63,330 nucleotides of DNA from a virus. How positions within the stretch are numbered: the stretch's first letter is position 1; every line of letters begins with the position of its first letter. Both the position numbers and the translations under genes were made by a program. The stretch lies in the IMG/VR virus record IMGVR_UViG_3300043409_002192, positions 1-63,330 of that record. One strand, written 5' to 3'. A model generated the notes under the pieces. It saw nothing but the letters and a program-made list of their open reading frames with translations. It was not told where the DNA came from and did not search any database. Shown piece by piece: positions 1-63,330 of this stretch.

Positions 1-324
1 CTTGACGGACATCCCGAAAGCGAACTGTGGGGAGAAAACGGACTGATCGCCGCAACGATGCGAGCTGCCAACTACGCCAGTCGCCAGCAAGAAGCGGAAT
101 GGAAGCTGGCCGACTACCTGCGCGGCGGAGGAATGCTCGCAGCGCCTGCTGACGATGGCGACGCGTGGAAAGCTGGTCGAAGCCAGTCGATGTGCTACTG
201 CATCGACGGGCAGGGTCGGACGATCATGGAATGCGTCGAATCAATATCGGATGCGATCATGGAGGAAATTTCTTCCGAGAACGTGCGGGTCACAGAGGAC
301 TCTGGCGGAAAGGACGCACAATGA
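1..324 (+). CDS. Lar-like zinc-finger protein, C-terminal part (gene crosses the circular join)
   Basis: This is the 3' part of the gene that begins at 62905; joined across the terminal overlap it makes about 198 aa. The part here encodes roughly 107 residues, mostly charged and helical, with no domain I recognise after the Lar-like zinc finger, which lies in the N-terminal part. The stop TGA at 322-324 overlaps the ATG of the next gene (ATGA), so the two are probably translationally coupled. The gene belongs to the cassette array. A half-site-like GGCGAAC at 63108-63114 lies inside the reading frame, so the C-terminal extension could be a fused second unit. Confidence 0.7.
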   Translation, partial: LDGHPESELWGENGLIAATMRAANYASRQQEAEWKLADYLRGGGMLAAPADDGDAWKAGRSQSMCYCIDGQGRTIMECVESISDAIMEEISSENVRVTEDSGGKDAQ

Positions 325-569
325 CACCTGACGCGCCAACGGTTGACGCTCTCATTGCGGACTTGGAAGCGCGCGGCCTCGGCTGGTCGCTCGACAACAC
401 AGGACGGCTCATCGAGGCGCGCGTGTGGGACTGGCCGTATGTGATCGGACGCTACCGCCCGAATGCCACCGAGCCGCTCGCCAAGATGCTCGCCGAAGCG
501 ATGTATCAGGTGGACTGGACCCGCTACCCGGTGAAGTCGCCGAACGCTCTGCCAACCTCTGGGGCATGA
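321..569 (+). CDS. Small cassette protein, unknown function
   Basis: This is an 82-aa protein starting at the ATG that overlaps the previous stop codon (ATGA). It is rich in Trp and Tyr (GLGWSLDNTGR, RVWDWPYVIGRYRP) and has a small folded-domain look, but I cannot assign a family. Its last residues, NALPTSGA, are encoded by the 5' arm of the attC-like junction that starts at 539, so the end of the gene and the recombination site are the same DNA. The longer upstream reading frame from 165 overlaps the Lar-like gene and is less likely to be used. Confidence 0.6.
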   Translation: MTPDAPTVDALIADLEARGLGWSLDNTGRLIEARVWDWPYVIGRYRPNATEPLAKMLAEAMYQVDWTRYPVKSPNALPTSGA

Positions 570-668
570 CCAGTGAATCTCAAAATACCAAAAGACATGA
601 TCGAAGATGCAAAACTCACGAAGTCCGACACGCCAGCCCCAGAGGTTGGCAGCAGCGCTTTGTTCGGC
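539..668 (+). repeat. attC-like cassette junction J2
   Basis: The 5' arm begins with R''-like GCCGAAC (539-545) and continues to GGGGC at 565. The 3' arm runs from GCCCC (636) to R'-like GTTCGGC (662-668). The arms pair over about 25 bp: CCAACCTCTGGGGC matches GCCCCAGAGGTTGG, with an unpaired C before AGCGC. The loop of about 70 nt holds the start of the next gene. This is the clearest long-stem member of the family. Confidence 0.8.
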
Positions 669-974
669 TGGCTTGGCGAGGAGATAGCTCGCAATCGACG
701 GAGGGCTGAGCAAGCTACTGCTCTCGCTGACCGTCTAGCCTCCCTAATGGCCGGAGCCTGCGCTGCCGGCCAATGGCGCGGAGTCAAGACGGTGAAACTC
801 GTGACCGATAGGGCCTATGTGATCCGCAGGCCGGGAACAACATCGCTCGAGCTAGCAACATGGCACGACGGATGGCGCACAATCATGGGGCATATTGCCA
901 ACGGGGGGGAACTCGAAGTGTGGGAGCCGAACGCTGAGGTGAGGCACGGCGCAAAGGACGCTGACCTCGACTAG
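597..974 (+). CDS. Small cassette protein, unknown function
   Basis: The ATG at 597 gives a 125-aa product; a GTG at 573 would add eight residues. I chose 597 because neighbouring cassette genes also start 10-16 codons before the conserved arm. Residues encoded by the arm are SSALFGWLG near the N-terminus and EPNAEVRHG near the C-terminus. The middle (WRGVKTVKLVTDRAYVIRRPG, WHDGWRTIMGHI) resembles a small alpha-beta protein, but I recognise no family. The unit begins with GTTCGGC at 662 and ends with GCCGAAC at 926, a perfect 7-base complement. Confidence 0.55.
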   Translation: MIEDAKLTKSDTPAPEVGSSALFGWLGEEIARNRRRAEQATALADRLASLMAGACAAGQWRGVKTVKLVTDRAYVIRRPGTTSLELATWHDGWRTIMGHIANGGELEVWEPNAEVRHGAKDADLD

Positions 975-1011
975 AAACTTTCCCGCCGTTGCCTCGACCG
1001 TCTTGTTAGCC
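926..1011 (+). repeat. attC-like cassette junction J3
   Basis: R'' GCCGAAC lies at 926-932 and R' GTTAGCC at 1005-1011. The inner arms GAGGCACGGCG and CGCCGTTGCCTC pair with one extra unpaired T. R'' and R' are not complementary to each other here. Instead R'' matches the start of the preceding unit and R' matches the end of the following one. Confidence 0.8.
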
Positions 1012-1117
1012 GTTCGGGGGACGCGGAAACCAAGCCGGACATGGGGGTTCTTCATGTCCGGCTAACGCTGCGGATCAGGCGACAGATGCGCTTCGAGCCG
1101 TTGCCTGCATCCCGCTG
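1005..1117 (+). other. ORF-less 113-bp cassette with a perfect hairpin
   Basis: This unit starts at GTTAGCC (1005) and its R'' is GGCTAAC (1060-1066), an exact complement. It contains no plausible gene. Its body is a perfect 11-bp inverted repeat, AGCCGGACATG (1033-1043) and CATGTCCGGCT (1053-1063), with a 9-nt loop; the second arm runs into R''. It may encode a structured RNA or a regulatory element, or be an eroded cassette. Confidence 0.6.
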
Positions 1118-1124
1118 GTTCTCT
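1060..1124 (+). repeat. attC-like cassette junction J4
   Basis: R'' GGCTAAC is at 1060-1066 and R' GTTCTCT at 1118-1124; the whole site is 65 bp, the second shortest after J12. GCGGATCAGGCGACAG pairs with CCGTTGCCTGCATCCCGC, allowing small bulges. The sequence directly after R' (1128-1150) closely resembles the sequence after the J12 R' site at 28289. Confidence 0.75.
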
Positions 1125-1153
1125 GACGTTGGTAAAAAATCTTCAAATAGGGC

Positions 1154-1182
1154 TTGCATAATGTAGCTTAAAGCTACATAAT
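1154..1182 (+). promoter_or_regulatory. Cassette-borne promoter with an operator in its spacer
   Basis: TTGCAT (1154-1159) and CATAAT (1177-1182) are separated by 17 bp, close to a sigma-70 consensus. A perfect palindrome, ATGTAGCTT-A-AAGCTACAT (1161-1179), fills the spacer and part of the -10 box. A repressor bound there should block transcription, and the XRE-type protein encoded at 1498-1698 is the obvious candidate. No strong Shine-Dalgarno sequence precedes the ATG at 1206. Confidence 0.75.
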
Positions 1183-1205
1183 AACACCGTAACCCGATCC
1201 AAACT

Positions 1206-1511
1206 ATGAGCCTTCAATCCGACATCCAAGAATACAAAGCCGCTTCAAACTCAGCTAATGCTCTCTATGCCAAAATCGGCACAGATAGAGACGCAGCCGT
1301 AGCCAAAAAGAATGAGCGCTGGGCGGTCAATAAGCGCAAACGTGAAGCCGGAGAAAACATCATCATGGCGATGCTGGGCGAACACAAAGCAGCTCTGCAA
1401 CGGGCTGGACTGGTTGATCTCTACAACGAAATGGCCGCTGGCAAACATGAGTGTGACACAGCGTTCTTTGCAATCGTGGACGCCACCGTAAAATACTATG
1501 ACGCCGCCTGA
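1206..1511 (+). CDS. Helical cassette protein upstream of an XRE regulator
   Basis: This 101-aa protein is predicted to be almost wholly alpha-helical and charged (KKNERWAVNKRKREAGE in the middle), with no membrane segment or signal peptide. It is the first gene behind the promoter at 1154-1182 and overlaps the HTH gene by 14 bp. The pairing of a small protein with a small XRE regulator under a self-operator resembles toxin-antitoxin or regulatory cassettes, but nothing in the sequence identifies it as a toxin. I recognise no family. Confidence 0.65.
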   Translation: MSLQSDIQEYKAASNSANALYAKIGTDRDAAVAKKNERWAVNKRKREAGENIIMAMLGEHKAALQRAGLVDLYNEMAAGKHECDTAFFAIVDATVKYYDAA

Positions 1512-1698
1512 ATACAAAAAGCTCCGCGAAAGCCTCGGCACACAAGCCGAGGTTGCTCGCATTCTGGGAGTCAACCGAGTGACAATCGCCAAACGCGAAA
1601 GCGGAGCGATGAAGCTCACTTGGGAAGCGTCTCTTGCAATGCGTGCCATTGCACCGCTCCGCAGTCCTAAACGCTTCCGGGAGGCACGCCGGAAATGA
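1498..1698 (+). CDS. Small XRE-type helix-turn-helix regulator
   Basis: This is a 66-aa DNA-binding protein. Residues 6-50 form a helix-turn-helix (YKKLRESLGTQAEVARILGV, then NRVTIAKRESG), typical of the minimal XRE/Cro class. It lies 14 bp inside the end of the upstream gene, so the two are coupled. It probably binds the palindrome at 1161-1179 and autoregulates the pair. The C-terminal residues SPKRFREARRK are encoded by the 5' arm of junction J5. Confidence 0.75.
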   Translation: MTPPEYKKLRESLGTQAEVARILGVNRVTIAKRESGAMKLTWEASLAMRAIAPLRSPKRFREARRK

Positions 1699-1751
1699 AG
1701 CCCGAATCAATCACAGACGTTATCGGCGTTGCCTCGCACGCCTTGTTCTCC
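1666..1751 (+). repeat. attC-like cassette junction J5
   Basis: R''-like CCTAAAC lies at 1666-1672 and R' GTTCTCC at 1745-1751. GGAGGCACGCCGG pairs with TCGGCGTTGCCTC, again with an extra T. R'' fits the GTTCTCT start of its own unit poorly, unlike most other units, so this end may have drifted or been exchanged. Confidence 0.7.
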
Positions 1752-1766
1752 ATCTTTTGAATTACC

Positions 1767-2072
1767 ATGAAAGTCCGCGACAAAAACATCAAACAGACTG
1801 TAAGTGTGGCCCATTCGCGTTGCCTCAAATGCGCGTGCTATTGGCCACGCCCCGATCCGGGGGTATTCACGCAAGGGCAGGGATACCGCCGACGCGAGGG
1901 AAAACAGGAATGGCTTTGCGGAACACGCGAAATCAGAGGATGCCCAACACGGGCGCGATGCTGCAACAGAGCCTACGCCGCCTATGAAACCAAGTGCCGG
2001 GAATGTGGTCATTCTTTGGAGAACGCACAAGCTCTGGCACAGCCGGGGCGCAACCAGACTCCGACACCATGA
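1767..2072 (+). CDS. Cysteine-rich cassette protein, probable zinc binder
   Basis: This 101-aa protein has about ten cysteines, arranged as CLKCAC, then CGTREIRGC, RARCC and KCRECGHS. That pattern suggests two or more zinc-ribbon-like sites. The final 20 residues (from SLENAQAL to the end) are encoded by the 5' arm of junction J6. The stop overlaps the start of the PAPS-reductase-like gene (ATGA). The unit begins with GTTCTCC (1745) and ends with GGAGAAC (2018), exact complements. Function is unknown; a nucleic-acid or protein-binding role is only inferred from the cysteines. Confidence 0.6.
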   Translation: MKVRDKNIKQTVSVAHSRCLKCACYWPRPDPGVFTQGQGYRRREGKQEWLCGTREIRGCPTRARCCNRAYAAYETKCRECGHSLENAQALAQPGRNQTPTP

Positions 2073-2117
2073 AAAACTCCACCGCCCCGGCCGTTGTCCA
2101 GCAGCGCCTTGTTCGGC
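2018..2117 (+). repeat. attC-like cassette junction J6
   Basis: R'' GGAGAAC is at 2018-2024 and R' GTTCGGC at 2111-2117. The arms GCTCTGGCACAGCCGGGGCG and CGCCCCGGCCGTTGTCCAGC pair over most of their length, with an unpaired T and an unpaired C in the 3' arm. The junction contains the ATGA overlap between the flanking genes in its loop. Confidence 0.8.
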
Positions 2118-2914
2118 CTTCCGGTCGTGTGCTTTGCCGCTTCTCCTGTGGTGCCGCTTCCGCTGTGGCTACAAAGCTGGCAATCGAGAAATACGGCACG
2201 GTAGAAATCAACTACTCGGACACTGGCAGCGAGCATCCAGACAATGCCCGCTTCATCGCAGACTGTGAGCGGTGGTTCGGTCAGAAAGTCACGATCACGA
2301 AAAGCGAAAAATACCGCGACATCTGGGAAGTGTTCGAGAAGAAGCGGTTTCTTGTCTCGCACCAAGGAGCGCCATGCACGGCGGAAATGAAACGCCGCCC
2401 AGGTGATTCGGTCTGGAGTATCGGGGACACTGAAATCTTCGGATACACGGCAGACGAACGGCATCGGGTAGAGAAATGGTCACGGGACAACTTCGAGAGA
2501 ATCATTGAATGCCCGCTCATCGAAAAGAACCTCACGAAGGATGACTGCTTCGGAATCTTGGACCGTGTAGGCATCGAGCTTCCCGCCATGTATCGGTTGG
2601 GGTTCCGCAACAACAACTGCATCGGGTGCGTGAAAGCCCGCGATAATCTCGACTACTGGAAAAGAGTGCGAAAGCACTTCCCCGAAATCTTCGAGCGCAT
2701 GGCAAAGCTGGAGAGGGACATCGGAACGACGATCAACCGAATCACAAAAGCGGGGGAACGCTCCCCGATCTTCCTCGACGAAATCGAAGCAGGCGACCCG
2801 AAAGGCGCGGACCCTAATATCCAGTGCGGACTCTTCTGCATGGCCGAAGCTGACGCGCTACTTGATGGGCCGAACGATAAAACTGAGCCACAGGCCCCAC
2901 AATCAAATCTATGA
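2069..2914 (+). CDS. PAPS-reductase / ATP-pyrophosphatase-like enzyme
   Basis: This 281-aa protein has the adenine-nucleotide alpha-hydrolase fold. The N-terminal loop FSCGAASAVAT is a variant of the SGGxDS PP-loop, followed by VEINYSDTGSEHPDN, the usual acidic strand after it, and a C-terminal RNNNCIGC plus CGLFC that may bind a metal cluster. Members of this superfamily reduce PAPS or act in sulfur transfer, including DNA phosphorothioation (DndC). Phage members are common but mostly of unknown role. It sits in the cassette array; the first residues (VVQQRLVRPSG) and last residues (GPNDKTEPQAPQ) are encoded by attC-like arms. Start and end motifs GTTCGGC and GCCGAAC are exact complements. 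It is the largest cassette gene here. Confidence 0.8.
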   Translation: MKNSTAPAVVQQRLVRPSGRVLCRFSCGAASAVATKLAIEKYGTVEINYSDTGSEHPDNARFIADCERWFGQKVTITKSEKYRDIWEVFEKKRFLVSHQGAPCTAEMKRRPGDSVWSIGDTEIFGYTADERHRVEKWSRDNFERIIECPLIEKNLTKDDCFGILDRVGIELPAMYRLGFRNNNCIGCVKARDNLDYWKRVRKHFPEIFERMAKLERDIGTTINRITKAGERSPIFLDEIEAGDPKGADPNIQCGLFCMAEADALLDGPNDKTEPQAPQSNL

Positions 2915-2964
2915 CAACACAAGAGACATCCGAGGGGCATATTGGCTCCAGTGCCTTGTTCGGC
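2869..2964 (+). repeat. attC-like cassette junction J7
   Basis: R'' GCCGAAC lies at 2869-2875 and R' GTTCGGC at 2958-2964. ACTGAGCCACAGGCCCC pairs imperfectly with GGGGCATATTGGCTCCAGT, with an unpaired T and an unpaired C. The weaker stem suggests some decay. Confidence 0.7.
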
Positions 2965-3264
2965 GTCCTTGAGTGGATCAGCCTCCAAGGAGGCACGTTC
3001 AACGCCTTCAATCCCGGCCTCATCACTGGCAAAGTGAGAGGTCTGACTTACCGCTACTTCATCGCGGAAGGGTGGATTGGGTTGAAGACACCGGACTGCA
3101 CGGCAGGGAAGGCGACAGAGTGCCTCAATATTGAGGATTTTCGATATGCGCTAGAAATCCATGCGCCGAACGCCGCTGCGCAGGACATGCCACACTTCCT
3201 GCCGAACGATTTAGCGCACACACAGAAGGGGCGGGAGCGCGGCCCCGATAAAACTCAAGCCTAA
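2911..3264 (+). CDS. Cassette protein, unknown function
   Basis: This 117-aa protein starts within the ATGA overlap of the preceding gene. Arm-derived residues are GSSALFGVLEW at the N-terminus and LPNDLAHTQKG near the end. The middle has aromatic beta-type sequence (GLTYRYFIAEGWIGLK), with no recognised domain. Two R'' motifs lie in its frame, at 3165-3171 and 3201-3207. The first shares an 18-bp block beginning CGAACGCCGC with junction J10. Residues from APNAAAQDM onward could therefore be an in-frame extension. Confidence 0.55.
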   Translation: MTTQETSEGHIGSSALFGVLEWISLQGGTFNAFNPGLITGKVRGLTYRYFIAEGWIGLKTPDCTAGKATECLNIEDFRYALEIHAPNAAAQDMPHFLPNDLAHTQKGRERGPDKTQA

Positions 3265-3329
3265 CTCTATGGAAACGACTACCTTTAACACAGCGGCCCC
3301 TTCTGTTGATGTGCCGCGCCTTGTTCGCC
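3201..3329 (+). repeat. attC-like cassette junction J8
   Basis: R'' GCCGAAC is at 3201-3207 and R' GTTCGCC at 3323-3329. GCACACACAGAAGGGGCGG pairs with GGCCCCTTCTGTTGATGTGC with one or two bulges. The start codon of the next gene (3269) lies in the loop. Confidence 0.75.
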
Positions 3330-3586
3330 CATTACGGACTGACGAGGAGATCGTCATGCAAACAGATAAGCTCGCCTTCACGCTGGCGCTACTGTCAGGC
3401 TACGCGTTCGATGCAGATTACAAGTTCCACCTGCACACGCGGATCGCTAGCTGCCCAATGCCTCGGCAGGCGCAGTTCTGGGAGATGGCTCGGCAAGCTC
3501 AATTGCTCCTGACCGACACTGACCCAGATGACGCCGTGGATAATCTCGATTGGGCGAACAGTGTGATACCCAAACCAGAAAAATGA
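3269..3586 (+). CDS. Last cassette protein of the first array, unknown function
   Basis: This is a 105-aa, mainly helical protein. DVPRLVRPLR is encoded by the 3' arm of J8; ANSVIPKPEK at the end overlaps the terminal R'' half-site GGCGAAC (3553-3559). That half-site exactly complements the unit's own start GTTCGCC at 3323, and no 3' arm follows it. No domain is recognised. Confidence 0.55.
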   Translation: METTTFNTAAPSVDVPRLVRPLRTDEEIVMQTDKLAFTLALLSGYAFDADYKFHLHTRIASCPMPRQAQFWEMARQAQLLLTDTDPDDAVDNLDWANSVIPKPEK

Positions 3587-3711: not shown

Positions 3712-6700
3712 TCATTTTTCCACCTCCCCGAGTTGATCCACCGGCCGGTTCTTGAGTTCTCCCCATGCCCGGCGGCGGCCTTCCTCGTAGGCGTCCTTGA
3801 TGCGCTTCACATCGTCCTCGGTGGGCTTCAGCGGAATCCCGGCCAAGGCATTCTTTGCCAGTGTGGCACTGCGGACGCTCAGGTATTTGTAGGCTTGGGC
3901 GTTCAGTTTCACGCGGGCCGGTTTTCCGCCGATGGTGAGGTTCTGTGTGCGCTCGGGGGAACTTGGAGCCCATGCCGGTTTTCCGGGGTTCGCCTGATTC
4001 CATTTTCGCAGGACGATATCGGAAAGCGTGGGTTTTCCGCTTTCGATGGTGGCTGGAATAACCAAGCGGCTGATTGCATTCCCTGATTTCTGCTTGTCCT
4101 CCCCGGTGGCGGTATTCACGCGGGCTTCTGCCCCGGAGCCCAAGGGGGCCAGCTGATACCACCAGTCTGCCGTGGTGCTATCGCGCACGAGCGGATCCAT
4201 GTTCCGGACCGGTTGGCGGATGAGGTTGGGCACGAGGGCATTCAGGATGAACCGCTCGCCCTTGTCTGCCAGTTTGCCGGGCTGCTTCACGCTGTCGAAC
4301 ACCGCGGCCAGGCCGCTCAGGAACGTCTTATTGAGGGCGGCATCCTTCAGGCTACCGAACACCAGTCCGGCCTTCTCGGCGCTGTCTCCGCCGCCCTTCC
4401 AAATGCGGAGGGCGTCAATGATGCTGCCAAGGACGGTGGCGATCGGTTCAATGCGACCGTAGGGGATTTTGGTGTCACCGATGCGGATGATGTAGCTTCC
4501 GCCAGCCACGCGCTCCTGTAGGTCTCTTTCCGCAAAGTCTGCGGGCGGGCTGCCGGTGATGAGGAAGGTTTTTTCTTCGTCATCGTCATCGCCTTCTGCC
4601 GCGCCTTTCAATAAGGCGAGGGCGGCCATGGCGATGGTTTGCTCGGCGAGCCATTGCATCATCTGCGGGCTCGTGGCGGGGGTGAGTCCCACGCGGCCGC
4701 CGGAGATTTTCACTAGTCCGGATTTCCCGAGTTGGTAAAGCAGATGCGCCATCCCCAGCGGAGACTTCCGGATGCCGGCGCGGAAGATATTGTAAGGAGT
4801 GCGGATGAAGGGCAGGATGAAACCCAGGAGGCGGCTGGAGTTTTTCCATTGCTGGAGGGGTTTCAGGGATTCCGGCAGTTCCGTCTGGAAGGTCAGTTCA
4901 CGCGCCTTCTCGACCGCCAGCTGCCATGCCTGGCTGCCGGGAGTGTAGAGGAGGGCATTCATGCGCTTCTGCATGGGCTCGCCACTGAGGCCTTCCGCCT
5001 TGGCGATGCGGTAGGCCTGCGCTGCGGCTTCCAGTTGGGCGACGGCGCCTTTGAAGAAGCCATCGACGGCCATGAGGGCGCGTCCGGGAATGCGCACCGT
5101 AGATCCGACGCTGGCACCCTTCCATCCTTTGCCTTTGGCTAGATCAATCACAGCGCCGGGCAGGCTTTTTGCCCCCGGTGTTCCGATCCGCCCCAGACTA
5201 TCCGGAATGGCGACCCGGCGTCCTTCGCCCTTCGGCCCGGTTTCGAAGAGTTCCGGCTCATTGTTCATGACATCGTAGTCGAACCAATCGGTTTCCGTTC
5301 GCCAGGCTTTGGACATGAGGCGGTATCCTCTGGCGACCCCGGGGAAGATGGCTTTGGCCATATAACGGAACTCTCCGAACTGGGCACCTTTCTTGTCGCG
5401 GATGGCGAGGTTCCAGACGGCTTCCATCCCACGCTGCACGGTCAATTCCCATGCGCTGGCAGCGGCGTTCCCGCTGATGTTGACCACCTGAGTCTGGGGG
5501 CCGGAGAGGAGGTTGTTGATCCAGTATTCCTGAACCATGTCCAGCGGATGGCCTTCGACCGTCTGGGCGAGGCGGGCGAGACGCACCATGTCTTCCACAT
5601 TGGCCATGTCGGCACCGTTGAGCACAGAGATTTCCATTTCCACCGGTTCATTGAGGCCAAGTCCAAGTTCCTGCTGGGGGATGTTGCGTTCCCATGTCTT
5701 CCCGGGTCCTGGCGGGATGCTGTTGTCAGCAGGTGGCGTGGTGCCGGGAATGCGGGGCTGAGTGCCATCTTGGCGGGGGAGGCGGGGCAGAGCGGCGTAT
5801 TCGTCCAAAGACATGCCAGTGCCGGCGGCGGGTGGCTGGAACAGGCGTTTGCGCTTCACCGTCTTTCGTTTGCCCTGCTGCTTGTCGGGGAAGTATCCCA
5901 TCTGACGGATGAGTTTCTGAATCTCCGCTTCCGCATCGGCATCCGACATGGCAGCCATGGCGGCGAAATCCACGTCCACGAGGTCGGCCGGCTGGCTGCC
6001 AAGTGGGGAGGACTGCAATCCGGCGGCGGCTTTGGCCCGGACCCGCATGGCGCGGAGTTGTTCCGCCAGCTTTGTCATCATCTTCTCCTTCACGGCGCGG
6101 ACTTCCTGAGGCGTCAGGCCTACCTCTTTCCCGATGTCGATGAAGGTCTTCTCTCCGCCTTGGAGGAGGATGGCAGCCTTCGCTTCCTTGGCTCCCAGGG
6201 TGGCAGCGGTCTGGCCGATGATGGCAGCCTTCCGGAGGGAAAGCTGAATCCCGCCGGAGAACAAATCATCAAGGGTAACGCCCATCTTGGCGAACTCCAT
6301 TTCGATCCGGCGGATGCGCTTGGCGTCCTCATCAAGGATCTTCTGGCGTTCGGCGGCGGTTTTTGCTTCCTCCATCTTCTTCCGCACCTTAGCCGGCGGC
6401 GTGAATATTTGCTTGGCGAGGAACTCGCGGTGCCGCGCCTCTGGTGTCTTAAAGGGATCCCGGCGGGAGGCGAGGCCGCGGGCTTGTTCCGTGCCGGCCT
6501 GGCGGTAGGCATAGACGAGAGCCTGCAACCGGCGCTGGCGGGGGCCGGTGAGAGGATTCCGGGATTCGCGTTCCACGATCATCTGGGCGGCCCGGGTAAG
6601 CTCCGGGGTCAACTGTCCGCCTTGGAGCCCATTGGCCATCAGACGTTGCACGGTGCCTTCGTAGTCATCAGCCAGCATGGCGCGGGCGGCGGCGTCCCAT

Positions 6701-9700: not shown

Positions 9701-12700
9701 AGGTCAGAGAAAATAACAATCTCATCTTCGGAAAGGCCAGCTTCGATCAGCTTGTTTTTGAGGTCCTTGGCCACATTGAAGACAGGCACTTTCACCTTGC
9801 CCTTCTCCTTGTTGCCGCGCTCCACAAAGTCAGAGAAACCCGTCTGCATGAACACCATTTGCGTGCTCTTTGGGTGTTCTCCGTAGTGCCGCATGATGTT
9901 TTTGGCGGCCCGGTAAACCTTGCTATCAGGCGTATCCAGTGCGTTCGGTTCGATCAGACGGTAATCCATGGAGGACTTCACGCCTTCGCCTTCAATCATG
10001 ATCGGCATTTCGGGGGCACCGCTGCGCATGGCATCCCGTTTCTGCTTGCCATTCATGTTTTTCCAACGGCGGTAACGGGCGGATAACTGCTCCTTGTGCG
10101 CTTTCTGCACGGCACTCATGGGGCTGATTTCATTCACCACTTGTTTGAATGGGCGTCCGATGGCGTCTTCGGTGCGTTCGTCACGGTCACTGCGGGGCTC
10201 AAACTCCGGCATGTCATCAGCAAACACGATGTCGAGGTATTGCCCAATCATCCGGCGGAGTTCCGGCAGGTTCACGAAGGAGGAAAGGCGTTCCACCGGT
10301 TCCCACTCGCTGGCACTGTTGAGTTCTACTTCTGTGGTGCTGGAGGCGAAGGAATTGAACCAATCATCCCAGCCGGCAATGCCGTCCCGCTTCATCACGT
10401 CATCCATGATGTAGCGCATCATGTTAAACACCTCATTCAGGGTGTTGGTGATAGGAGTCCCGGTAAACAGGTGAATCCCATTGCCTCCGTTGTTCCGCTT
10501 CACGTAATCAGCCAGTAATCCCAGCATGATCCCGCGCTTGCTGCCGTTTTTGTTCAGGCCCTTGAGCTTCTGCTTGGTGCTGAGAGGCAGCTTTTTGAAG
10601 ATGTGCGCTTCATCGACAATCACCATGTCTACGCCCAAATCTTCGAAGAACACGGAATCCGGGTTCTCGGCCATCTGCCGGGCCTTTTCGATCATGGCTT
10701 TGACCTTCTCGCGCTCCTTCACCAATTCCTTGGCAGTGGGGCTGCGGAGTTTCTTCAGAGCGTCAGGATCATCCATATCCTCAATGGACAGGCTGGCGTT
10801 GTCATCTTCGGCAGCGGCAATGGCGGCCTGTTCCAGTTGTTCGATTTCCTCACGAACCAAGGCTTCCACGGATTCCGGACGGAGAGACAAACGGGAAATC
10901 AGACTGTGGGGAATCACTACGGCGTCCCACTCATCCAGTGCGATCTGGGCGAGAGTGGCGGCACGGGTGGCCGGGTTAAAGTTGTCCACGAACAACACCT
11001 TCCCGCCGGGATAGGCAGACTGGATTTCAGCGGCCACCTGTCGGGCATTGGCATTGTGGGCAAGGATGATTGGTTTACGCGCCCGGCCCAACCGGCGGCT
11101 TTCCATGACAAGGCCAGCCATGACAAGAGTTTTGCCAGTGCCGACCTCATGAGCATTCAGCGAGCGACCGGTGACCACACCACGCCAGACGGCATTCTGT
11201 TGGTGTTGCCGGAGATTGAACGGACCATTCCCCTTGGAAACAGCCAAGCCTTCAAATGCAAGGTGGCTGCCATCGTAATTTGGCAGAGCGATGGCATTGT
11301 AAACCTCGTTATAGTTTTTCTCCAAGCGTCCGGCGCGTTCCGGATCCTGCCAGAGCCATTTCGTGAACTCTTCCCGGATGGCTTCCACCTTGGCGTTTGC
11401 TTCCTTGGTCGCCTTTTCATTCACGGGCTGGCTACCGTCTTCCTGCCGGGGGTATTTGATCACCACGGTCGCGTTGTTCATGGCAGCGGATACCAACTTG
11501 CGGAAGGAGTAATCGGCCACGCCCCATGTGGTCGTGGCTTCCGGCTTGCGGGTCAGGCCATCGTCCATTTGCACTTTCCAGCCCTGCGGCATCTTGTCGA
11601 TCTTCACCCCTGAATCTGTATTCAGGAGAGACTGGACAAACTCCACATAATCCTTCGACGGTACCCAAGTAGCTCCGATCTTCGCTTCAATCTGGAAGTA
11701 AGGGATATCGGCAGGAATCACCGCAGCAAGGGCGTCAATGTTCCGGTCCATGTCCATCACGCCCTGTTCCTTGGCATCAAGGGCTTGACGGTATTTTTCC
11801 CGGACATTGCCGGCGAGGTAGATGTCCGTGGGTTCGTAGGTGCCCACCGGGGTCTTGTAAATCTGATTGGTGGCAAACAGTTCCTTCTCCACCTCATCCA
11901 CCGTGGTCTTGGCCTTTACTGCAATGGAGGGAAGATCCAGAACTAAGGAGGCATTGCGGGCGAGGACGTAGGCATCCGCGATGGAAGGATTCTTAATGCT
12001 CCGAACGCCCCGCAGCACGTCCTTGGTGAAAATGTCGGCTTTTATCACGGTGTCGCCATTCACCTTTTCCAAGGCCATCAGCATAGGCATAAACGGATCG
12101 CCTACCCGAGCCATGATAGAAATCCCTTCACTCCTCCGGATGGATTTGTGCGCTTTGGTGAACGCGTCGTATTGATCATTCAACTGCTTCCGCAGGCCGG
12201 TGGAATCGCGATTGTTGCGCTGGGCATCCAGCAAAGCCCCGACTGTCCGACGGATTTCCACCAGGTCTTTGATTTGAGCTTCCCGCTTGGCCGTTTTGGC
12301 GGCGTCCTTCACGGCATACTTCACCACATTGGAAAGCGGCTTCAGATGGTCACCATCGACCACGTAAAGGCCATCATCTGTTCTTACCACGCTGCCCTGT
12401 CGGTCATTGGAATTGTTGGTGACGTAGCTATCAGCTTGGCCAGCGGTCAGTGATGGAACGTAAGCGGCATCTTTCGGCAGCATTTCCGCCACCTTGGCCA
12501 AGCGCTCTGGCAGGTCGTCAGTGCGGTTCACAATCATCCCTGGCCGGTAGCTCGTGGTGCCGTGGCCGTGATTGAGCACTCCCAGAATGTTTTCCGGGTG
12601 GTCGGCGAAGTATTCATTGATTTCCACATCCGTCCCACTTGGGGTCCGGACGCTCTTGAGATTGAGGAATCCGCTTTCACGCGGGTCGCTTGGTTTCTCC

Positions 12701-25868: not shown

Positions 25869-26241
25869 AGGCAAATGTCCGGTCCAGCTTACGCGCCTTT
25901 CCGGACCAGCGCAATTGTTGCCTAGATTACATCTGCCGCAACTTTGAGACCTCAGCTCCTAAATCGACTGCACCGCGCCGTGGACGGCTCCCCACTCGGC
26001 AGGCCGATACGCTTTGCCGAGTGGGTCGACGCATAGCTCATGGATCACTGCCCGCCATCGACGTTGACTTCGGAAAAACTGTCCGCCGGGCAGGGATTCC
26101 ATGCAGCGTCTTGTTCTGGGTCTTTTTTGGGGCGGTGAAAATAAATGATAAAAGATTGAAATAATGCTTGCAGGAAATCAAACCGCGATTTAAGGTCTTC
26201 TCAGTTGCCGCACGAAGCGCAATCGAACCGACCAACAAAAA
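25869..26241. other. Divergent non-coding region with hairpin and an eroded attC-like site
   Basis: No gene is seen here. It separates the leftward block from the rightward gene at 26242. It holds a perfect 11-bp hairpin, CCCACTCGGCA (25991-26001) and TGCCGAGTGGG (26015-26025), not followed by a T run, and then the attC-like junction J13. AT-rich sequence at 26130-26180 probably carries a promoter, but I cannot assign boxes with confidence. Confidence 0.5.
26025..26119 (+). repeat. attC-like junction J13 (eroded)
   Basis: The 3' arm ends in R'-like GTTCTGG (26113-26119). ATGGATCACTGCCCG pairs with CGGGCAGGGATTCCAT, with one extra T and then a C before AGC, as in the other junctions. The expected R'' is only GTCGACGC (26025-26032), lacking one A of the CGAACGC core. 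It opens the second cassette region. Confidence 0.55.
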
Positions 26242-27465: not shown

Positions 27466-27669
27466 GTGGAAATCAATGACGAAGGTGACAAGTCGGAGGA
27501 GGAAATCTGGTGGTTTAATGTCTCTCGGAACAGGGAAGAGATATTCAACTCATCTGACTTTAAAGGAGCGATCATAGGCGGCGAAATGTGCCGTGCGCTC
27601 GCTGAGGCCATTATGGCGAACGCCGCTGCGCAGGAACCCCCGCTGACACTGAACCCAACCAACAAATAA
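27466..27669 (+). CDS. Small acidic protein ending in an attC-like arm
   Basis: A GTG at 27466, five bases after the previous stop, would give 67 aa (VEINDEGDKSEEEIWWFNV...). The sequence is well composed and ends in NAAAQEPPLTLNPTNK, encoded by the 5' arm of junction J10. This matches the arm-encoded C-terminus of other cassette proteins. The start codon is uncertain because upstream the frame overlaps another gene. Confidence 0.45.
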   Translation: MEINDEGDKSEEEIWWFNVSRNREEIFNSSDFKGAIIGGEMCRALAEAIMANAAAQEPPLTLNPTNK

Positions 27670-27738
27670 AATGAACGAACTACCTAGCACTAAACCGGAG
27701 GCGGATGGCGGGGTTACCCTGCCTCAGCCTTGTTCATC
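27615..27738 (+). repeat. attC-like cassette junction J10
   Basis: R'' GGCGAAC (27615-27621) and R' GTTCATC (27732-27738). GCTGCGCAGGAACCCCCGC pairs with GCGGGGTTACCCTGCCTCAGC with small bulges. The bases just after R'' share an 18-bp block beginning CGAACGCCGC with 3167-3184 in the first array. Confidence 0.75.
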
Positions 27739-27964
27739 GCCGCTTGACCCTGCCACATGCCTTGCCCTCAAGCCCGTCCACGACATCGGCGATCAGGCGG
27801 TGAAGGAGCGCGACGAATGGAATCGCTGGTCTGTGGGAATCGCTGGGATGCTCAATGTGTCGTGTTCTGACTTCGCCTCAGACGTGGTGGCAGATCAATA
27901 CGCGGAACTCCGCGCCCGAATCACTCAAGCACTGAACGACTCAAGCTCAGCGACCCGGCCATGA
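27671..27964 (+). CDS. Cassette protein, unknown function
   Basis: This 97-aa protein has an N-terminal VTLPQPCSSPLDPATC encoded across the 3' arm of J10 and a C-terminal LNDSSSATRP encoded across the 5' arm of J11. The middle (HDIGDQAVKERDEWNRWSVG) is helical. It overlaps the next gene by ATGA. No family is recognised; phage genomes often carry small proteins of this composition. Confidence 0.55.
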   Translation: MNELPSTKPEADGGVTLPQPCSSPLDPATCLALKPVHDIGDQAVKERDEWNRWSVGIAGMLNVSCSDFASDVVADQYAELRARITQALNDSSSATRP

Positions 27965-28023
27965 AAGACTCACCCTTGCAACCAACGGACGATGGCCGGG
28001 TTCGCTGCAGCGCATGGTTAGGC
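27931..28023 (+). repeat. attC-like cassette junction J11
   Basis: R''-like ACTGAAC (27931-27937) and R' GTTAGGC (28017-28023), the latter fitting the classical integron GTTRRRY core. GCTCAGCGACCCGGCC pairs with GGCCGGGTTCGCTGCAGC with an extra T and an extra C, a particularly clear example. Confidence 0.8.
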
Positions 28024-28236
28024 GGCGGGCTATCGGCACTCCAGCGAGTGCGCAATCGGCTCCGGGACGAAGAATGTGAACTGCGCAAGCAAGCGGATAA
28101 ATGGCACCACCTCGGTGCGCCCGAAACTGCAACCGCAAAGCGCCTCGCAGCAGATGTTCTGGATGCTGCGGTCAGCGTCATCGTTAAGCTTGAGGTCGAA
28201 ATCATCGCTGAGCGAGATGAGCCGCCTAACGCTTGA
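27961..28236 (+). CDS. Cassette protein, helical, unknown function
   Basis: This 91-aa protein starts in the ATGA overlap. RVRCSAWLGGGLSAL is encoded by the J11 arm; the middle (RVRNRLRDEECELRKQADKW) and DVLDAAVSVIVKLEVEI are helical. The stop lies inside R'' of J12. Its start GTTAGGCGGC and end GCCGCCTAAC are complementary over 10 of 10 bases. On the opposite strand the arm reads NHALQRTR, a peptide type I remember from many environmental bacterial genomes. Confidence 0.55.
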   Translation: MKDSPLQPTDDGRVRCSAWLGGGLSALQRVRNRLRDEECELRKQADKWHHLGAPETATAKRLAADVLDAAVSVIVKLEVEIIAERDEPPNA

Positions 28237-28285
28237 GATCAGCCACGGGGCCTTAGCCCCGTTGGACTGTATCTCATTGTTCTGC
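28224..28285 (+). repeat. attC-like cassette junction J12
   Basis: R'' GCCTAAC (28224-28230) and R' GTTCTGC (28279-28285). TGAGATCAGCCACGGGGC pairs with GCCCCGTTGGACTGTATCTCA with two extra T bases. At 62 bp it is the most compact junction. Confidence 0.8.
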
Positions 28286-31161: not shown

Positions 31162-31346
31162 ACAGGAAGAGGGAACGCGACTCAAGTATGATGACTGCCC
31201 CACGGGATCGGAAGCTACTCTTGGAGCGGTATGGCTCTCCTTCAAAATTTGTGGGTCGGTGGGATCATGAAACGCAACGCTGGCTAAATGAAGCCGGCGA
31301 ATGGATGACGAAAGTTCACACTTGGCACCCTTTACCATCAAAATGA
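31158..31346 (+). CDS. Small basic protein before the resolvase, unknown
   Basis: This 62-aa protein contains WDHETQRWLNEAGEWMTKVHTW. It starts after an AAGGAGG ribosome site and overlaps the resolvase start by ATGA, so it is co-translated. No domain is recognised. Confidence 0.5.
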   Translation: MNRKRERDSSMMTAPRDRKLLLERYGSPSKFVGRWDHETQRWLNEAGEWMTKVHTWHPLPSK

Positions 31347-31987
31347 AAACACCCGTCGCTATCTTGGTCCGTGTCTCCACCGTGAAGCAGGAAACCGCCC
31401 GTCAGATTTCAGAACTGACAGCGGCGGCTACTGCGAAGGGCTGGAACGTCGTGGAGGTCATTGAGGAAACCATTACCGGCCGGGCGGACGCCAATATCCG
31501 GCCAGGGCTCGCCCGCATCACCGCCCTCATGGCTGCCGACAGAATCAGGAAGGTCATGGTTCATGAGGTTTCGCGCCTGAGCCGCCGGCCTGCGGTGGTC
31601 CATCAGTTCGTCGAGGATCTGGAAGCCGCGGGCGTCTCGCTCTATTGGCACGCCCAGGGCATCGAGACACTGCTGGCGGATGGGAAGCGGAATCCTGCCG
31701 CAGCAATCATGCTGGCCTTGCTGGCGGAGTTGGCCAGGGCAGAGACTGATACACTGCGGGAGCGGGTGAAATCAGGGCTGGCAGAGGCCAAGCGGAATGG
31801 TGTGAGGTTGGGAAGGCCTGAGGGTACGCTGAAGGCTGCTGCGGTGTTTCTGCGGGATCATCAGGACGTGGTGAAGTATCTGGAGCGGAAGCATACTATT
31901 CGCGATGTGGTGAAGCTGACCGGGAAAGCAATGGGCACGGTGCAGAAGGTGAAGCACGCTTTGAAGGGGGGAGAAGAAAAACCTTGA
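31343..31987 (+). CDS. Serine recombinase of the resolvase/invertase family
   Basis: This 214-aa protein has the usual small-recombinase length. The catalytic serine is in ILVRVSTVKQE near residue 10, and the conserved arginines are in VHEVSRLSRRP. The helix LRERVKSGLAEAKRNG and the GRPEG hinge precede a C-terminal helix-turn-helix (HTIRDVVKLTGKAMGTVQKV). It probably resolves genome dimers or inverts a segment. No crossover site is obvious. It lies between the terminase subunits. It is not an integron integrase, which would be a tyrosine recombinase. Confidence 0.9.
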   Translation: MKTPVAILVRVSTVKQETARQISELTAAATAKGWNVVEVIEETITGRADANIRPGLARITALMAADRIRKVMVHEVSRLSRRPAVVHQFVEDLEAAGVSLYWHAQGIETLLADGKRNPAAAIMLALLAELARAETDTLRERVKSGLAEAKRNGVRLGRPEGTLKAAAVFLRDHQDVVKYLERKHTIRDVVKLTGKAMGTVQKVKHALKGGEEKP

Positions 31988-62316: not shown

Positions 62317-62528
62317 TGAACCTAAACGAAATCATCCGAATCCAAGTCCTGATGTATAGGGTCGCTCTGAAGGAATCACTTGAGGCCAAGACAGAATACA
62401 CACGCATTTACCAACGGGGGTATGCCAGAGGCATTGCCATTGCTCTGCGGGACATGACCTCAGGACAAAAATGTTCTCCAGCATTGCTGGAGCAATATAA
62501 GTTATCAAGCCTACGGCCCACGCCATGA
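62317..62528 (+). CDS. Small helical protein, unknown
   Basis: This is about 70 aa from the ATG at 62317, helical (EIIRIQVLMYRVALKESLEA, then RGYARGIAIALRDMTSGQK). It ends over the start of the first cassette gene. An upstream frame from 62121 overlaps the leftward gene and lacks a clear start. Confidence 0.45.
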
Positions 62529-62904
62529 AAAGTAACCCATCGACTAGGACGACCGGGGCGTCGGCTCCAGTGCCATGTTCGCTGACTTGGTGTGATGGCT
62601 GCCTAAATCGCCGTCCATGCCGCGCCCTAAGATCGGGAGTCGTTTACAACTGCATCGAACTGGAAATCCACCTCTGCCGCTGGTGCCGAGGGCAACGAAC
62701 TCGCAAGTCAGCGAACGACAAAGGCCAGACACGGCGGGAGGAATTAGCTGCGCCGCCCCCCGCGCTCCCCTCCGCCCCACTCCCTGACGATCAAATTACG
62801 CAAGCCATGCTGGAAGCCTGCTACGACTGTGGGATGAGCGCCCACGCGCTGCCGCTTCTGCCGAACGACCAAGCGCTGGCACCGGATGGGCCGAAAACAA
62901 CTCT
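62525..62904 (+). CDS. Cysteine-rich cassette protein
   Basis: This protein of about 126 aa (stop near 62908) has an N-terminal Cys-rich part: VPCSLTWCDGCLNRRPCRAL and LCRWCRGQR, two CxxC-type pairs of zinc-ribbon kind. A Pro/Ala linker and ACYDCGMSAHALPLLPNDQA follow, the last part encoded by the 5' arm of J1. The R' at its start, GTTCGCTGAC, is complementary over 10 bases to GTCAGCGAAC at 62706-62715 inside the gene, while a second R'' ends the gene. This suggests an in-frame extension of an older, shorter cassette. Confidence 0.55.
62577..62586 (+). repeat. Array entry: R'-only half-site J0
   Basis: The 3' arm GGGGCGTCGGCTCCAGTGCC ends in GTTCGCTGAC, but I find no pairing 5' arm upstream. 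A lone 3' half is what one expects at the first position of a cassette array, where the attI-like end would be. Confidence 0.5.
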
Positions 62905-62962
62905 ATGAAAACAGAACCAACTACCCCGGCCCAGCCGGTTGCCCAGCCGCGCCTTGTTCGCC
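62860..62962 (+). repeat. attC-like cassette junction J1
   Basis: R'' GCCGAAC (62860-62866) and R' GTTCGCC (62956-62962). GCGCTGGCACCGGATGGGCC pairs with GGCCCAGCCGGTTGCCCAGC with an unpaired T and an unpaired C. The next gene starts in the loop at 62905. Confidence 0.8.
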
Positions 62963-63330
62963 CGTTGCCCTGCCCTCATTGCGGTGGGCCCGCCGAACTC
63001 CGGCGATACCAACACGACCGCGAAAGGGTGTATTACGCCTGCGCGGCCGCGGCGTGCCACTACACATATACCGACCATAGCGAAGCACTGGCAGCGTGGA
63101 ATCATCGGGCGAACAGAGGAACCGAACCCACCCCACCCAGAAACCCGTCGCGAGTCGAAGAACAACTACGCATCGCACTTGACGGACATCCCGAAAGCGA
63201 ACTCTGGGGAGAAAACGGACTGATCGCCGCAACGATGCGAGCTGCCAACTACGCCAGTCGCCAGCAAGAAGCGGAATGGAAGCTGGCCGACTACCTGCGC
63301 GGCGGAGGAATGCTCGCAGCGCCTGCTGAC
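62905..63330 (+). CDS. Lar-like zinc-finger protein, N-terminal part (continues at position 1)
   Basis: This begins a 198-aa protein continuing at 1-324. Residues 22-70 follow the Lar pattern: PCPHCGGPAELRRYQ, YYACAAAACHYTYTD and the closing EALAAWNHRA. Lar proteins are small phage proteins linked to relief from type I restriction. The frame goes on for over 120 residues after the usual Lar end. The first residues (VAQPRLVRPL) come from the J1 arm. Two R'' motifs lie in its unit (63108-63114 and 539-545). Confidence 0.7.
   Translation, partial: MKTEPTTPAQPVAQPRLVRPLPCPHCGGPAELRRYQHDRERVYYACAAAACHYTYTDHSEALAAWNHRANRGTEPTPPRNPSRVEEQLRIALDGHPESELWGENGLIAATMRAANYASRQQEAEWKLADYLRGGGMLAAPAD
63178..63330. 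repeat. Terminal overlap with positions 1-153
   Basis: The last 153 bases repeat the first 153 with one difference (C at 63204, G at 27; both codons give Leu). Assembly overlap of a circular molecule is the simplest reading; a physical short terminal repeat is less likely because the frame runs straight through. Confidence 0.8.

Follow-up and report, generated by a model that had tools for sequence, protein, structure and literature searches.

What separates the small genes of the viral record IMGVR_UViG_3300043409_002192 (IMG/VR), and in which direction do the separating elements act? The window, i.e., the whole stretch of 63,330 nucleotides (nt) that was analyzed, is a phage genome that forms a 63,177-bp circle: its first 153 bases recur at the end with one mismatch. 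It carries terminase, portal, major head protein, endolysin, and replication genes, and the first three of these make it a tailed bacteriophage. Small genes around the circular join are separated by paired arms, which the original prediction, made from the sequence alone, read as the attC sites of an integron array that has no integrase. The analysis described here supports that reading and extends it: we put at roughly 80% the probability that the window carries an integrase-less integron-type array, in a phage of probable Verrucomicrobiota hosts, with a backward and frame-locked layout and with cassettes exchanged by IntI acting in trans.

To detect the sites, a covariance model (R1) was trained on 16 attC-like sites from Verrucomicrobia genomes and from viral contigs other than the window, which contributed none itself. 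R1 matched nine window sites at E ≤ 1e-6 (A1, A2, A3, A6, A7, A8, B2, B3, and 26024-26116; Table 1), reaching E 2e-15, and a tenth, A5, at E 0.004. All of these sites lie on the same strand in two clusters, one spanning the join (62,860 to 3,329) and the other between 26,024 and 28,285, and no further match at E ≤ 1 was found in the window outside them. Of the 24 pairs in the attC consensus, 18 vary on both sides, and the consensus shows the R and L arms, the unpaired spacer, and the variable loop of a folded attC. This covarying consensus and the matches of an independent model confirm, as far as sequence can, that the window junctions are genuine attC sites. The GCCGAAC and GTTCGGC arms are as originally described, and the sites lie at gene boundaries. 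Eight junctions (J1 to J8) had been counted around the join and eleven in all; R1 supports seven sites in that region, the rest are degenerate, and the count is consistent. The degenerate junctions at 1060-1133, 62500-62583, and 27615-27738 (long loop) are based on arm pairing and reading by eye. Fold scores were expected to exceed those of shuffled sequence, and this was true of the best sites: in a sequence-blind scan of arm pairing, 539-668, 62860-62962, and 3201-3329 beat the best score in each of six dinucleotide-shuffled genomes, with A2 having the top score of the genome on both strands. The other real sites fall within the shuffle background, and the covariance model was used instead because of this overlap. 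An Rfam search of the window gave neither an attC family nor any other match.

Compared with the classical boxes RYYYAAC and GTTRRRY, the AAC/GTT core is invariant, and the GTTCGGC box carries a C at the fourth position, outside strict GTTRRRY, as originally noted. Since GTTCGGC is also present in Verrucomicrobia genomes carrying IntI, this deviation is not peculiar to phages but ordinary for IntI-bearing Verrucomicrobia integrons. No tyrosine recombinase (PF00589) was matched in the window at E ≤ 1, and the only recombinase seen there is a serine recombinase at 31301-31987. With ten model-supported sites, where at least two suffice, and no neighboring intI, the array is a cluster of attC sites lacking integron-integrases (CALIN), in agreement with the original prediction; a complete integron, comprising intI, attI, and an attC array, is not present, as the window has no intI.

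Because attC boxes are nearly palindromic, direction must be derived from asymmetry. The structure of the Vibrio cholerae repeat (VCR) places extrahelical bases on the folded bottom strand. The viral sites, which were collected by attC patterns of one subfamily with near-duplicate records mostly counted once, have 229 extra unpaired bases on the 3′ arm of the gene-sense strand versus 49 on the 5′ arm, i.e., the one-sided distribution of an attC, and such bases are likewise expected on that arm of the folded bottom strand (PMC3053210). Breakpoints in related contigs point to the same side. Over 3.8 kb, L065 matches L077 at 99.7% identity but has one extra cassette; the L077 junction combines the left flank of one L065 site with the sequence of the next L065 site from the box onward, the breakpoint lying inside GGCGAACGCCGCC. 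In addition, a 331-nt cassette common to L075, L080, and L067 extends exactly from GCCGAAC to GCCGAAC and is found with two left-hand and three right-hand neighbors. Units bounded by R′ in varied contexts, as expected of integron cassettes, were thus seen on the related contigs, where they were looked for, and the cassette traffic that had been proposed between hosts was observed between phages. The breakpoints and the bulge asymmetry both point to the left-hand GCCGAAC as the true crossover box, R′, and the minus strand of the window corresponds to the canonical attC top strand. The arms of the R″-L″-L′-R′ plan originally proposed stand, and the names R″ and R′ had been swapped. The same grounds led to the rejection of another candidate, in which the preceding cassette lends each gene its start codon.

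These contigs also bear on the possibility that the conserved attC repeats recombine by homology, in which case cassettes would have moved without an integrase and the sites would be relics and not its active substrates. The phage encodes a Sak4-like annealing protein and an exonuclease, the window has no integrase, and many pairs of sites have the attC alone in common (about 75 to 93%), with different genes on either side. A3 is 98.8% identical over 83 nt, and nearly identical in its inner part, to an attC of viral contig L058 located after a different gene; A5 shows 82.9% identity over 70 nt with a site in L059; and A6 shows 93% and 89% identity with sites of phage G010 (L033) and L049, respectively, the genes differing on both sides. 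However, the breakpoints in both sets of contigs lie in the short left box and not across the approximately 100-nt site, and the box pairing and one-sided bulges are maintained, which makes homologous recombination a rather unlikely explanation.

Viral and bacterial arrays alike were read in one sequence polarity, set by the search pattern and R1. In bacterial integrons placed in this polarity (L154 and L155), intI is found on the right-hand side and points away from the array, which is why the canonical attC top strand is taken to be the opposite strand. The ratio of reversed to canonical genes was 45:4 (13 ambiguous) in the viral arrays versus 2:45 (11 ambiguous) in the arrays of Verrucomicrobia and Planctomycetes (Fisher P = 4e-20), and bacterial cassette genes mostly start a few bases past the canonical R′. 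The canonical arrangement, with the gene along the attC top strand and the attC at its 3′ end, is thus not that of the viral arrays. Judged from these strand counts, the phage cassettes are inverted: their genes are antiparallel to the canonical attC top strand, and the attC lies at the gene’s 5′ end.

The inverted layout goes together with a constant reading frame: the upstream gene passes through the left box in phase CCG/AAC at 75 of the 87 viral sites (P = 2e-24) and at each of the nine window sites whose AAC box is intact, producing tails that include PNDQALAPDGPKTTL, PNALPTSGA, PNAEVRHGAKDADLD, and PNDKTEPQAPQSNL. Bacterial sites read on the same strand show left-box phases of 18/14/8 and no lock. 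At the right-hand box of the viral sites, a frame lock of leader peptides was tested for and none was found (18/28/16, with agreement in 19 of 36 related pairs), as predicted if crossover occurs at the left box alone. It follows from the frame lock, on predicted translations, that the attC of the next cassette supplies the C-terminal tail and the stop codon of the upstream gene. Most viral reversed genes have their start codon inside their own attC, and of the 62 viral sites where a read-through ATG lies close to the stop, 38 show an ATGA overlap. The original array reading holds, and it had overlooked that the genes start within attC, run backward, and share a locked frame.

Could the array be an ordinary CALIN derived from a host integron, in which the backward polarity and the fixed frame are packing by-products with no functional meaning? 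Phage genes are tightly packed, ATGA overlaps are common among them, and host-type integrons with identical boxes exist. Phage CALINs have also been reported previously (PMC9892861). However, the bacterial arrays recovered by the same pattern are canonical (2:45) with starts just after R′, so that capture alone does not yield backward cassettes, and packing accounts for the overlaps but not for a single phase in 75 of 87 cases at one box and none at the other; we therefore consider this explanation improbable. The idea that the hairpins are gene-boundary RNA elements, acting in translational coupling or termination and not in recombination, agrees with their position at stop/start overlaps and with the hairpin that gene-sense RNA would also form, but it is very hard to sustain given AAC/GTT boxes, a spacer, and one-sided bulges that coupling does not need, a model that also finds arrays adjoining intI in bacteria, and whole units of site and gene that recur in varied contexts with box-exact ends.

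A candidate integrase is found in G010, a distant relative whose head protein is 28% identical to that of the window. G010 encodes, near attC sites, an IntI-like protein (TIGR02249, E = 6e-55; best Protein Data Bank [PDB] match, IntI4) at the canonical end of a small array, which lies on the 5′ side of the gene. It aligns with known integron integrases (TIGR02249; VchIntI4, PDB 2a3v) over 300 amino acids (aa), including the IntI-type KYPxA...W.FP stretch, and it is 34% identical to a Verrucomicrobia IntI. When 388 Verrucomicrobiota genomes were searched for portal relatives, a single good match was obtained, a portal protein 40% identical to that of the window (G276 contig C172, 63,387 bp; L176 and L177), which probably belongs to a related phage or prophage. 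Together with the attC type, this match does no more than suggest a Verrucomicrobiota host for the window phage, as no attC was found in the first 40 kb of the contig, the part searched. The cassette genes with recognizable domains encode C5 and N6/N4 methyltransferases, MT-A70, Mom, a protein with a Lar-like domain (gene 2), and a member of the phosphoadenosine-phosphosulfate (PAPS) reductase family (gene 8), so that the recognizable cargo appears to be mostly DNA modification or anti-restriction.

In the proposed mechanism, the cassette unit would comprise a C, the rest of the attC, the gene, and GCCGAA, with the attC at the gene’s 5′ end and the start codon usually in its unpaired loop. IntI, supplied in trans by the host or by a phage such as G010, would bind the gene-sense strand in its folded form, with GCCGAA^C as the point of cassette exchange. 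The gene upstream would then pass this crossover point, nearly always in the one frame, enter the new attC, and gain from it a short C-terminal tail and a stop that overlaps or adjoins the next start. Because of the shared frame and the stop/start overlap, any cassette could follow any gene, and translation would be handed on in a compact operon. On balance, we lean toward a still broader proposal, that this is a phage-specific integron type with inverted cassettes, starts in the attC loop, and one shared frame, in which the attC is an in-frame protein connector and phages of Verrucomicrobia-like hosts swap anti-restriction genes by host or phage IntI, leaving swappable C-terminal tails.

Several observations weigh against this interpretation. 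The sample was gathered by patterns of a single attC subfamily, with gene direction taken from the longest open frame and not from a gene finder, and a second viral sample was less uniform in polarity (15:3, i.e., 15 of 18 reversed) and in phase (16:7:1). Boxes of the form GNNTAAC are often in phase 0, where TAA is an immediate stop, and the lone site of G001, the closest relative found, is also in phase 0. The window sites A4, A5, 26024, and 62500 are degenerate, and part of the array may therefore be decaying. The frequent sharing of the attC alone, with different genes on either side, is not explained by simple R′-to-R′ exchange and is reminiscent of the repeat families found in large chromosomal integrons. 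In addition, the G010 protein scores 186.8 bits, below the TIGR02249 family cutoff of 265, and among the 26 records that bear an array a single one has a convincing IntI, none being present in the window or in most related records.

CALINs in phages were described by Qi et al. in 2023 (PMC9892861), with several phage attC sites recombining with IntI1 in their assay. Those phage CALINs, e.g., that of Tetrasphaera phage TJE1, resemble the window in being integrase-less attC arrays with small codirectional genes, and methyltransferases are among the cargo both there and in the viral arrays studied here; the text consulted makes no mention of backward polarity, a start codon in attC, a frame lock, or natural exchange between phages. 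The TJE1 sites, unlike those of the window, appear canonical by eye, with the attC after the gene, and R1 gave no match on TJE1. A structural scan of TJE1, P12002L, and MW202573 (whole or nearly so) and of the first 50 kb of H101 revealed no convincing site of the window kind. The chromosomal integrons of Verrucomicrobiota and Planctomycetota (IMCC26134, Opitutaceae metagenome-assembled genomes, and Zavarzinella formosa) share with the window the GCCGAAC/GTTCGGC boxes, the CTTGTTCGGC end, and the same covariance model, and their intI is at the expected end where it can be placed; they differ in their canonical gene direction, in starts a few bases after R′, and in having no frame lock on the phage-gene strand. 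Fused integron cassettes, as described in PMC4670013, likewise interact between neighbors at the level of open reading frames (ORFs), but by partial or total attC loss in a canonical array, whereas intact attC sites carry the stop and the start as a rule in the window. Judged against open-licence papers, in which prior reports were sought, the class of phage CALINs is known, and what is new is the architecture: reversed polarity, start in attC, frame lock, and whole-cassette differences with breakpoints in the box.

Among the related records, a terminase profile matched 8 of 18, the others being fragments or having terminases beyond its reach. G001, whose head protein is 70% identical to that of the window, has a single attC site (R1, E 1e-8), adjoining a homolog of the same large gene. 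A block of two giant genes at 3712-25874 of the window is inverted relative to G001 (L029 to L031), and the attC clusters of the window lie close to both of its ends. A terminator-like stem-loop (GCCGGACATG/CATGTCCGGC) lies between A3 and A4 at 1046-1066. Genes 5 and 6 are possibly a self-regulated cassette with its own promoter, given an operator-like repeat and a helix-turn-helix (HTH) protein. A relative of gene 8 (93% aa identity) occurs in contig L005 of phage G002; it was excluded as an attC cassette, as it has no attC flanks and a different direct repeat on both sides. This repeat of about 35 nt (ACCGATGACATCCCGTTCTRAARCGACGGCGGTTG; L005, about 9974-10010 and 10778-10812) is not attC-like, and the gene that it flanks possibly represents another cassette system; the G002 record also encodes a tyrosine recombinase. 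On the reverse complement of L064, at 5748-5840 and beyond, a DnaB-type helicase with an apparent intein (838 aa) is encoded by a gene whose start lies in an attC loop.

Table 1. Sites, genes, and repeats of the two attC clusters in the window
Feature	Position	Strand	Evidence
Main cluster			
Degenerate attC around the start codon of gene 1, without its outer left arm but with right arm GGCTCCAGTGCCATGTTCGC	62500..62583	-	Sequence and fold; no R1 match
Cassette gene 1, 127 aa; tail PNDQALAPDGPKTTL encoded by next attC	62525..62908	+	
attC A1; predicted crossover box GCCGAAC at left end	62860..62962	-	R1 E=3.7e-15; fold
Cassette gene 2, 198 aa; start codon inside A1; N-terminal Lar-like restriction-alleviation domain	62905..63330 then 1..324	+	Spans join; Pfam PF14354 E=2.3e-6, just under cutoff
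Lone GGCGAAC, crossover-box-like remnant within gene 2; no partner arm found	63109..63115	-	Sequence
Circular join, inside gene 2	63177 then 1		
Gene 3, 82 aa; overlaps gene 2 at an ATGA; A2 supplies tail PNALPTSGA	321..569	+	
attC A2; 17-nt perfect inner stem	539..668	-	R1 E=1.5e-7
Gene 4, 133 aa; starts in A2; tail PNAEVRHGAKDADLD from A3	573..974	+	
attC A3	926..1011	-	R1 E=1.9e-10
Degenerate attC-like site A4 (GGCTAAC ... GTTGGT)	1060..1133	-	Sequence only; no R1 match
12-nt inverted repeat ATAATGTAGCTT/AAGCTACATAAT, operator-like, upstream of genes 5 and 6	1158..1182		
Gene 5, 101 aa	1206..1511	+	
Gene 6, small HTH protein	1498..1698	+	Pfam HTH_3 E=4.9e-5
attC A5; left box damaged	1666..1751	-	R1 E=0.004 over 1670-1747
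Gene 7, 101 aa; tail ENAQALAQPGRNQTPTP from A6	1767..2072	+	
attC A6	2018..2117	-	R1 E=4.9e-12
Gene 8, PAPS reductase family; start codon inside A6	2069..2914	+	PF01507 E=4e-6, phrog_424 E=7e-53 (both on ORF 1994-2914)
attC A7	2869..2964	-	R1 E=2.1e-15
Gene 9, 117 aa; ATGA overlap inside A7	2911..3264	+	
attC A8	3201..3329	-	R1 E=1.3e-10
Gene 10, 105 aa; start codon inside A8	3269..3586	+	
GGCGAAC half-site at the end of the array, in the place expected for an attI or a lost attC	3549..3555	-	Sequence
Second cluster			
attC; left box damaged	26024..26116	-	R1 E=8e-7
attC-like site B1; long loop, tail ANAAAQEPPLTLNPTNK	27615..27738	-	Arm-pairing scan; not among R1 matches
Cassette gene starting inside B1, 97 aa	27671..27964	+	
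attC B2	27931..28023	-	R1 E=2.5e-8
Cassette gene starting inside B2, 91 aa	27961..28236	+	
attC B3; short, GCCTAAC box	28224..28285	-	R1 E=9e-7

Integron cassettes are usually viewed as promoterless genes in one orientation, which is set by the strand choice of attC. The many phage cassettes studied here are instead inverted as a rule, yet would be insertable through a fixed frame across the crossover point, and a recombination site that doubles as coding sequence becomes testable. Since near-identical attC sites accompany unrelated genes, these arrays also offer material on how genes acquire attC sites. As a plug-in locus with methyltransferase, Mom-like, Lar-like, and PAPS reductase cargo, such an array could let phages change their counter-restriction genes quickly.

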